Origin: Streptomyces zhihengii
GTDB lineage: Bacteria > Actinomycetota > Actinomycetes > Streptomycetales > Streptomycetaceae
DNA length: 64,000 nucleotides
Direction of reading: 5' to 3'
Assembly (NCBI RefSeq): GCF_016919245.1
Contig: NZ_JAFEJA010000001.1
Span: 2,108,001-2,172,000, forward strand
This document shows positions 810-53,237 of this stretch, in pieces (position 1 is the first letter of the stretch; every line of letters begins with the position of its first letter). The position numbers were made by a program, and so were the translations under genes. A model generated the notes under the pieces. That model saw only the letters and a list, made by a program, of their open reading frames with translations, was not told where the DNA came from and searched no databases.

Positions 810-2300
810 TTATCTCGTTGTCGCTCGGGTCATGTGCTCGGGCTGCGGTCCGGCGGCCGGTCCGGTGGGCGCGGGGCGCCGCACCGGGCCGATCGCGAAC
901 AGGGCGAGCCCGCTGACGATGGCGGCGCCGGCCATGATCAGGAACGCGGCGCGGAAGGAGGTGAGGTCGGGCCGTCCCGCGAGCACGGCCGCGACGACGG
1001 AGACGCCGACGGCCATGCCGATCTGGCGGGACATGGATGCCATGCCGGTGCCGGTGGCCACCCGCTCCGGCGGCAGGGAGAGGGTCGCCGAGGCGGCCAG
1101 CGCGGGCAGGATGAGGCCGAAGCCGATGCCGCCGATGACCGATCCCGGCAGGAAGTGGCCGGTGAAGTCCGGGGTGCCGTCGAGGGCGTAGGTCCACCAC
1201 AGACCGCCGCCCGCGAAGGCGGCGGCGCCGACGGGGCCGACCCGGTGGACGCCGTGGCGGACGGACAGGATGCCGCTGGGCACGGCGCACAGCGCGGCGC
1301 ACACCGGCCCGGGCGCGATCTCCATCGCGCCGCGCAGCGTGGAGTGCTGCCAGACCTGGGTGAGGAACAGGATGGTGGACAGGGCCATCGCGCCGACTCC
1401 CATGAAGAAGAAGCCGGTCGCCACGTTGCCGAGGGCGATGGTCCTGATCCGCAGCAGTTCCGGTTCGAAGACCGGCGCCGGGTGCCGCCCGGCGCGGCGC
1501 ACCGTCCAGACCAGGCCGAGCGCGCCGGCCACCGACAGTCCGGCGACCTCCGGGCTCGTCCACCCCCAGGACTGGCCCTGGGCGATGGTGGCGACGACCG
1601 CGGCGACGGAGACGGCGAGCACCGCGCTGCCGGCGAGGTCCGGCACGGGGCCGGCCTCCCGGGCGGAGCGGCGCAGCGACCAGGCGCCGATCAGCAGGGC
1701 CACCGTGCCCAGTGGCAGGTTGACCACGAAGACCCAGCGCCAGTCGATCTCCGCCAGCAGCCCGCCCAGCGGCAGCGCGGCCGCCGAGCCGACGCCGCCG
1801 ACGGCGGTCCACAGCCCGATCGCGATGCCGCGCTTCTCGGGGGCGAACAGCCCCAGCAGCAGGCCCAGCGAGCTGGGCGCCATCAGCGCGGCGCCGACGC
1901 CCTGGACGGCGCGGGCGGCGACGAGCACCTCCAGGGAGGGCGCCGCCGCGCACACCGCCGACACCCCGGTGAACAGGGCGAGGCCGAGCAGGAAGACCTG
2001 CTTGCGGCCGGATCGGTCCGCCCAGCGGCCGCTGGGCAGCAGCAGCGCGGCGAACGTGATCGCGTAGGCGCTCATCACCCAGGACAGGCCGGTCAGGGTG
2101 GCCGTGGGAAACGACTCCTGCATGCTCGGGAACGCGATGTTCACGATCAGCATGTCGACCGCGGAGATGAACACTCCGATGAGGATGACGGTGATCGACA
2201 GGATCCGGCGCAGCCTGTAGCCGCCCGGGCCCCGGTCCGCCGTCCGGGTGCGCCGGTGCCTGCCCCGGCCGCCGCCGTGGAACCCCCCTTCGCCGCTCAT
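810..2300 (-). CDS. MFS drug-type exporter (DHA2/EmrB-QacA family)
   Basis: 496-residue integral membrane protein. After a basic N-terminus, hydrophobic helices begin at ILSITVILIGVFISAVDMLIV. The motif GRWADRSGRKQVF is the cytoplasmic loop 2-3 MFS signature, and ARAVQGVGAALMAPSSL with the following helix resembles motif C of proton antiporters. The ATG at 2300 overlaps the stop of the thioesterase-bearing PKS gene (ATGA), so it is probably translationally coupled. That coupling makes export of the polyketide, and self-resistance, the likely job (inference). Much longer readings in this frame run through the PKS gene in a wrong frame; the overlap ATG is the sensible start. Confidence 0.9.
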   Translation of the reverse strand: MSGEGGFHGGGRGRHRRTRTADRGPGGYRLRRILSITVILIGVFISAVDMLIVNIAFPSMQESFPTATLTGLSWVMSAYAITFAALLLPSGRWADRSGRKQVFLLGLALFTGVSAVCAAAPSLEVLVAARAVQGVGAALMAPSSLGLLLGLFAPEKRGIAIGLWTAVGGVGSAAALPLGGLLAEIDWRWVFVVNLPLGTVALLIGAWSLRRSAREAGPVPDLAGSAVLAVSVAAVVATIAQGQSWGWTSPEVAGLSVAGALGLVWTVRRAGRHPAPVFEPELLRIRTIALGNVATGFFFMGVGAMALSTILFLTQVWQHSTLRGAMEIAPGPVCAALCAVPSGILSVRHGVHRVGPVGAAAFAGGGLWWTYALDGTPDFTGHFLPGSVIGGIGFGLILPALAASATLSLPPERVATGTGMASMSRQIGMAVGVSVVAAVLAGRPDLTSFRAAFLIMAGAAIVSGLALFAIGPVRRPAPTGPAAGPQPEHMTRATTR

Positions 2301-52700: not shown

Positions 52701-53237
52701 GAGGTAACCCTCGATCTCCGGCCTGCGGTCGCTCTGTCCGGCGACGAACTGGTAGTCGGAGAACATGAGTCCGCAGAAGACGCCGGTGTCGCTGCCCTTG
52801 AGCGAGGTCGGGTCGATGCCCGCGTCCTCGAAGGCCTCCCAGGCGCCTTCGAGGAGCAGCCGCTGCTGCGGGTCCATGGCGAGCGCCTCGCGGGGGCTGA
52901 TGCCGAAGAACTCGGCGTCGAACTCGGCCATCTCGTCGAGGAATCCGCCATGGCGGGTGTAGGCGGTGCCGGGGTGGTCCGGGTCCGGGTGGTAGAGGTT
53001 CTCCAGGTCCCAGCCGCGGTCGCCGGGGAACTCGGAGAACCCCATCCGTCCTTCGGCGACCAGAGACCACAGGTCCTCCGGCGAGGCCACTCCTCCGGGG
53101 AAGCGGCAGCTCATACCGACGATGGCCAGGGGCTCTGCCGCCTGGTCGAGCAGTTGTCGGTTCTCGCGACGGAGCCGCTCCGTCTCCTTCAGCGACTTGC
53201 GCAGGGCTCCGACGATGTCGGGCTTCTCGAGGGCCAT
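46734..53237 (-). CDS. PKS-1: type I modular PKS, module a (KS-AT-DH-ER-KR-ACP)
   Basis: 2167 residues, a complete reducing module. Docking helix [20 protein letters not shown] with the variant TVCSSS (Cys209), AT with GHSQG (Ser665) and YASH at 766 (methylmalonyl-CoA), DH His975/Asp1143, ER with HAAAGGVG near 1544, KR with Tyr1872 and LAD in place of LDD (the diagnostic second Asp is kept, so probably B-type), ACP with GFDSL (Ser2036). The C-terminal docking tail ends [14 protein letters not shown]. The ATG at 53237 is chosen over one 39 nt upstream because GGGGGAAACC precedes it and the docking helix begins there. There is no loading AT-ACP or KSQ; the N-terminal helix shows it receives a chain from another PKS protein not in this window. 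Its KS has GVGWAEG where the other eight have GTGFSDG, pointing to a different ancestry. Confidence 0.95.
50928..51553. repeat. 0.63-kb methylmalonyl-AT repeat, copy in module a
   Basis: Partner of 23414-24039. The flanking sequence on both sides diverges quickly, so the edges are those of a recombined AT cassette. Confidence 0.88.

Follow-up and report, generated by a model that had tools for sequence, protein, structure and literature searches.

A candidate gombapyrone-like polyketide cluster in Streptomyces zhihengii with a LonP-like cytochrome P450 and a putative terminal-diene desaturase

Gombapyrones, described from Streptomyces griseoruber Acta 3662, are alpha-pyrones made by a type I polyketide synthase (PKS) and bearing a mid-chain benzene ring formed by the cytochrome P450 GbnP; GbnP and LonP, the P450 of lorneic acid biosynthesis, are both reported to convert linear polyenes into benzene rings (PMC10265476). 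The nft cluster for NFAT-133/TM-123 combines a 2-pyrone with a trisubstituted benzene; its P450 NftE1, 46% identical to LonP and GbnP, is needed for the ring, an MBL-fold hydrolase is involved, and purified NftE1 gave no product in vitro (PMC10265476). The lorneic acid cluster of Streptomyces sp. NPS554 also builds its polyene on a modular PKS, with an acetate starter, an acid end and, in the excerpts of its description, no unreduced modules, and rows 245-265 of its gene table name no acyl-CoA dehydrogenase (PMC4306953). Compared by description, through the kind of P450 and the pyrone-type end, gombapyrones appear to be the closest known class to the locus described here. The word gombapyrone was not found in the alpha-pyrone review PMC4901931. 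A first-pass annotation had recognised no known pathway in the module order of this locus; the gombapyrone, lorneic acid and NFAT-133 group offers a known type of pathway into which it fits.

The window, that is, the whole stretch of 64,000 nucleotides that was analysed (G000:C1:2108001-2172000), comes from the 9.73 Mb, seven-contig genome of Streptomyces zhihengii. The locus is a cis-AT type I PKS cluster of KS-AT-ACP modules with in-line reductive domains, and its five PKS genes in the window are all encoded on the minus strand, from 53276 down to 2297 (Table 1). The start of g1 is ambiguous, being either 53276 or an ATG at 53237. PKS domains were located with Pfam on one-module slices and with HMMs built from the cluster's own domains, and AT motifs were read from an alignment of the ATs. 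The window edge cuts the assembly line: to the left, on the same strand, follow the rest of the P450 gene, a DUF2867 gene, the PKS gene gL and an acyl-CoA dehydrogenase (ACAD) gene.

Table 1. Genes and domains of the cluster. Positions are those of the window unless a contig or locus name is given.
Feature	Position	Strand	Content
PKS gene g1 (module 2)	46734..53276	-	KS(DTVCSSS)-AT(YASH, methylmalonyl)-DH-ER-KR-ACP; N-terminal docking head
PKS gene g2 (modules 3, 4)	36064..46737	-	each KS-AT(HAFH, malonyl)-DH-KR-ACP
PKS gene g3 (modules 5, 6, 7)	20195..36067	-	modules 5, 6 malonyl DH-KR; module 7 methylmalonyl DH-KR
PKS gene g4 (module 8)	13725..20198	-	KS-AT(HAFH)-DH-ER-KR-ACP
PKS gene g5 (modules 9, 10)	2297..13672	-	AT YASH / FASH; DH and KR dead in both; terminal thioesterase
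Dead DH, module 9	10076..10876	-	catalytic Asp replaced by Glu
Dead KR, module 9	8846..9373	-	catalytic Tyr and NADPH motif lost
Dead DH, module 10	4703..5512	-	catalytic Asp replaced by Glu
Dead KR, module 10	3650..4129	-	Tyr and NADPH motif lost; two weak HMM pieces
C-terminal thioesterase (TE) domain of g5	2309..2938	-	PF00975
MFS transporter gene (MFS2)	810..2300	-	directly after g5; PF07690
LonP-like P450, gene start	1..795	-	continues beyond the window to G000:C1:2107353
DUF2867 gene	G000:C1:2106560-2107156 = L002:17560-18156	-	outside window, left
gL, KSQ loading and module 1 PKS gene	G000:C1:2097098-2106454	-	outside window, left
ACAD gene	G000:C1:2095897-2097090	-	outside window, left
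Stand-alone thioesterase	53582..54478	-	PF00975
DHA2-type MFS efflux transporter	54537..56054	-	
ECF-type sigma factor	56756..57388	+	candidate cluster regulator

The accessory genes vary among relatives of the cluster. MFS2 also follows g5 in G080 (80%), and a repeat scan with the ORF at 810-2300 found no homologue after g5 in G104, G337 or G317. A homologue of the ECF sigma factor lies near the cluster in G104 (72%) and G337 (91%), and none was found in the G080 stretch. A SAM methyltransferase gene (L002:5847-6512, plus strand) adjoins the cluster, with 81-83% homologues at varying positions near the clusters of G104, G080 and G337. Outside the cluster, on the minus strand, lie a FecCD permease and a Peripla_BP_2 binding protein (59202-61441), probably an iron-siderophore uptake set, and a LacI-type regulator with a GH43 glycosidase (61612-63998).

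In ATs of modular synthases, the motif HAFH denotes malonyl and YASH methylmalonyl specificity. Read in gene order, the window therefore holds one methylmalonyl DH-ER-KR module, four malonyl DH-KR modules, one methylmalonyl DH-KR module, one malonyl DH-ER-KR module, a dead methylmalonyl module, a dead FASH module and the TE, which is the series that the first-pass annotation had given, recovered here with Pfam on slices and with the cluster's own HMMs. The FASH motif of the module 10 AT stands with GHSQG, in a domain that shares 69-72% identity with the YASH ATs of modules 2, 7 and 9 and 33-36% with the HAFH ATs; on account of the former identity methylmalonyl is our default guess, though an uncertain one, for its extender. 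The corresponding AT has YASH in G080 and G337 and FASH in G104 and G317. The malonyl ATs of modules 3-6 and 8 share 93-98% mutual identity, as if homogenised by gene conversion.

The docking ends bear on the order in which these modules act. The N-terminal heads of g1 and g5 score 104 against each other (BLOSUM), any other pair with g1 or g5 scoring at most 29, and the heads of g3 and g4 are alike (112). Among the C-terminal tails, those of g2 and g3 score 96, that of g1 scores 40 and 41 against these, and gL and g4 are reciprocal best matches (41). The likeness of the g1 and g5 heads, taken with that of the gL and g4 tails, points to handovers from gL to g1 and from g4 to g5. The latter agrees with the situation in G104, which has no g4 and in which g3 combines a g3-type head with a g4-type tail (107, versus 19 for the g3 tail), as would be needed to meet g5 when g4 is missing. 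Docking ends and this tail swap thus support the reading of gene order as order of action; among g1, g2 and g3, gene order and a compatible docking class lend it support.

At the end of the line, the DHs of modules 9 and 10 retain their His and carry Glu for the catalytic Asp, while DH Asp and KR Tyr are intact throughout modules 2 to 8. With DH and KR dead by residue in both modules (Table 1), the two unreduced units that had been predicted ahead of the TE are borne out, and the last two modules are in the same dead state in all four relatives scanned (G104, G080, G337 and G317). The DH flag "h-" and the KR flag "nad-" given to some relatives are automatic residue patterns. Two unreduced units followed by a TE are a trait of PKSs with an alpha-pyrone ending and are present here, as dead DH/KR pairs and a PF00975 domain. 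The dead modules and the TE together support a 3,5-diketo thioester end, as first proposed, and the resulting C27 3,5-diketo acid would probably close to a 4-hydroxy-2-pyrone, which is also the likeliest closure in our reading. The domain content leaves the chain no hydroxyl with which to form a macrolactone.

The start of the chain lies beyond the window. The gL ORF of 3,118 residues encodes KSQ(DTAQSSS)-AT(YASH)-ACP followed by KS-AT(HAFH)-DH-KR-ACP, its first KS having Gln in place of the active-site Cys. Since gL thus supplies the loading module and module 1, the first module in the window is module 2 and every module number of the first-pass annotation rises by one: the order given there for the window holds, whereas the starter and module 1 were missed, as was the neighbouring ACAD, which is expected to add a terminal diene to the product. 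A KSQ with a YASH AT implies that the starter should be propionyl, and propionyl loading with a malonyl DH-KR module that has no ER makes gL a nearby source of a 2-pentenoyl thioester.

The ACAD is identical at 242 of 382 residues (63%) to PDB 6u1v, which we take to be TcsD of FK506 biosynthesis, and its Glu375 stands at the position of Glu364 of that structure, presumably the catalytic Glu in both. The file is titled "acyl-CoA dehydrogenase domain-containing protein", and a paper naming 6u1v was not found in the literature search. The likeness to TcsD and to HliR is that of gamma,delta-dehydrogenases acting on short acyl thioesters; the proposed substrate of HliR is a free diketide thioester, while here the enzyme is predicted to act on a diketide still on the line, made by a KSQ-led module 1. 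HliR of haliangicin biosynthesis, closest to TcsD, fully converts pent-2-enoyl-SNAC, and without it the terminal alkene of haliangicin is not formed (PMC4768178). No crotonyl-CoA carboxylase/reductase, as in the FK506 allylmalonyl pathway, was found among the subset of window and left-flank ORFs scanned.

gL is followed by ACAD in 15 of the 16 clusters in which a search for the two was possible (our own, L008-L013, L015, L016, L017, G080, G337, G069, G337b and G238). In this count L011 is G317 and L016 is G104, each counted once; L014, which stops short of gL, and L007 were excluded. The named loci end within the ACAD, which is therefore truncated there. The exception is G101, with a KSQ gene and no ACAD in the stretch seen. 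Across 392 Streptomyces genomes there are 24 ACAD loci at E <= 1e-120, and all eight with at least 79% identity adjoin such a gL. The remaining 16 are 56-72% identical; in the 15 of these that were examined (L082-L096) no KSQ(YASH)+HAFH-DH-KR gene was found directly upstream on the same strand, several show other PKS types, and in four (L085, L086, L094 and L096) no PKS domain was found. The ACAD subfamily is thus broader than a gamma,delta-desaturase role in clusters of this type, and because the 56-72% relatives sit in other settings, the kind of ACAD is by itself no proof of that role.

That gL and ACAD serve another pathway, with g1 starting its chain on a different acyl unit, would suit the position of gL, downstream of the P450 gene and separate from g1-g5, as well as the lesser likeness of its KSs and ATs to the others. 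We regard this as very improbable, since g1 carries a docking head together with an ordinary KS, the tail class of gL matches the head of g1, and every family 1 locus in which that stretch can be seen preserves the order P450-DUF2867-gL. The KS of module 2 has the active site DTVCSSS here and in G104, G080 and G337, and DTACSSS in the sister family; the former is possibly a gate for a dienoyl chain.

Peucemycin was considered as a relative and rejected. An ACAD of S. peucetius is 88% identical (P0124), but peucemycin is a gamma-pyrone macrolide, C24H30O6, with ethyl groups and a SARP regulator, PeuR, unlike this PKS (PMC8693821). No SARP regulator was found among the subset of window and left-flank ORFs scanned.

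The best PDB match of the P450 reaches 96.6 bits, and the protein has the heme Cys418 in FGGGHTRCLG and an AGTET motif. Among the best 120 of 176 matches it is identical at 230 of 438 positions (53%), over 91% of its length, to P0305, a 534-residue P450 of Streptomyces sp. NBRC 109706. NBRC 109706 and NPS554 are the same strain; it produces lorneic acid, and its P450 Orf1-257 (LonP) likewise has 534 residues (PMC4306953). The kinship to LonP is thus closer than that between the known members NftE1 and LonP or GbnP, although 53% identity does not prove the same benzene-forming reaction. In named genomes, scanning with the P450 located 11 loci, each in Streptomyces; among 394 genomes sampled from the class, two passed E <= 1e-110, namely our own and one further Streptomyces.

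Sister clusters in G069, G337b, G238 and G101 have the P450 (49-54%), the DUF2867 protein (52-53%) and a KSQ gene, with ACAD in three of them, and in none of the four did the same residue patterns reveal two dead modules at the end of the line; in G229 the P450 (43%) and DUF2867 (60%) lie beside a different PKS. Retention of the pair in these five settings indicates that it is not tied to a diketo end. An alternative product, a 3(2H)-furanone resembling actinofuranones and E-837, would arise if the diketo acid were decarboxylated and the P450 then oxidised the chain; on this evidence it is quite improbable. Its appeal lies in the two unreduced terminal units, which would suit actinofuranones, E-837 and linfuranone, and which, with the predicted methyl count, would fit a 2-hydroxy-2-methyl furanone skeleton (PMC6225470); linfuranone, moreover, is itself a modular PKS product (PMC4675959). 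As the present P450 is LonP-like and is retained in clusters without a diketo end, it probably does not make the gamma-pyrone or furanone that the first-pass annotation had allowed for, and the pentaene is probably consumed.

A second alternative leaves the chain linear: a methyl-branched pentaene 4-hydroxy-2-pyrone that the P450 would only hydroxylate or epoxidise, for example at the terminal diene. The PKS domains do predict a pentaene and a diketo end, and haliangicin offers a precedent of an epoxide next to a terminal alkene, but that epoxide is made by HliU, which by its listed homologue is not a P450 (PMC4768178). With a P450 53% identical to LonP, of a kind reported to aromatise linear polyenes, we think it unlikely that the linear compound is final. 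The earlier deduction of a methyl-branched pentaene and two-carbon spacer from the domain order is supported; what the LonP-like P450 changes is the status of the polyene, the pentaene being more likely an intermediate than an end product, and the linear pentaene pyrone would most likely be the precursor of a gombapyrone-like aromatic pyrone.

The geometry of the polyene would have to be dealt with before such a ring could form. The KRs of modules 3-8 and of module 1 all have the LDD motif, which is linked to trans double bonds (PMC10265476), and an all-trans chain in modules 3-8 implies that isomerisation is needed for ring closure. The methyl of the pentaene is predicted at its carboxyl-side end, unlike that of lorneic acid as we read the excerpts of PMC4306953, so that by strict analogy with lorneic acid the ring would be ortho-dialkyl rather than trialkyl.

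A DUF2867 gene lies within 1.7 kb of the LonP-like P450 gene in all 10 loci from 384 Streptomyces genomes. The lorneic cluster gene table, as excerpted, names no DUF2867 and lists some short ORFs as "unknown" (PMC4306953). A PDB sequence search with the DUF2867 protein yielded a single hit, at E 1.1, which we attribute to chance. Modelling from the single sequence gave a pLDDT of 31.8, and modelling from 73 sequences gave a good model; a Bet v 1/START-like helix-grip fold is tentatively predicted. It is tempting, though decidedly speculative and in our estimation doubtful, to see DUF2867 as working specifically with LonP-like P450s, holding the all-trans polyene and bringing about the isomerisation or fold that ring closure requires, and acting here on a pyrone-bearing pentaene with a tail from on-line gamma,delta-desaturation to give an aromatic pyrone with a terminal diene. 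No such product was found among the matches listed in a literature search.

Taken together, we lean slightly towards a gombapyrone-like aromatic pyrone cluster, with a propionyl start, desaturation by ACAD, a pentaene, a diketo end and a ring made by the P450. From the domain order we infer that gL would load propionyl through its KSQ and methylmalonyl AT and make (E)-pent-2-enoyl-ACP, which the TcsD/HliR-like ACAD would desaturate at the gamma,delta position to pentadienoyl-ACP, the future terminal diene. g1 would extend this by a reduced methylmalonyl unit; four malonyl double-bond units and one methylmalonyl double-bond unit would give a pentaene with one methyl, module 8 would add a saturated two-carbon spacer, and modules 9 and 10 would add two unreduced units. 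The spacer is not certain, because an ER domain inside the polyene stretch of lorneic acid biosynthesis is thought to be possibly silent (PMC4306953). The TE would release the C27 3,5-diketo acid (C27H36O4, computed mass 424.2614) or the 4-hydroxy-2-pyrone (C27H34O3, 406.2508), and the LonP-like P450, perhaps with the DUF2867 protein, would oxidise the polyene and close a mid-chain benzene ring, giving an aromatised and hydroxylated C27H34O4 (422.2457) or an aromatised and dehydrated C27H32O3 (404.2351). These formulas were counted from the domain order, with FASH taken as methylmalonyl. Literature searches for pentaene pyrones, terminal-diene ACAD/PKS products and pentadienoyl polyketides showed no matching product among the matches listed.

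The polyene modules differ among relatives. Our locus has four malonyl modules, one methylmalonyl module and one fully reducing malonyl module, for a pentaene with a spacer; G080 and G337 have three malonyl modules before the same two, for a tetraene with a spacer, and G104 has four malonyl modules and no spacer, for a tetraene. The series in G317 is cut by a contig end. The two DHs DH6 and DH7 of g3 (region 20195-30769) are 98% identical, and the extra unit of our locus therefore looks like a recent module duplication, a probable event that would have lengthened the polyene. The G337 genome carries both cluster families (L048-L051 and L101-L104), each with its own P450, DUF2867, KSQ gene and ACAD.

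The analysis corrects the product first predicted for this locus and gives masses by which the new prediction can be tested. Family members that differ by single modules form a natural series for the study of PKS evolution, and the cluster suggests that terminal dienes may be made by a desaturase acting in line. A trans polyene must bend for P450-dependent benzene formation, and the DUF2867 protein is a candidate for this step.
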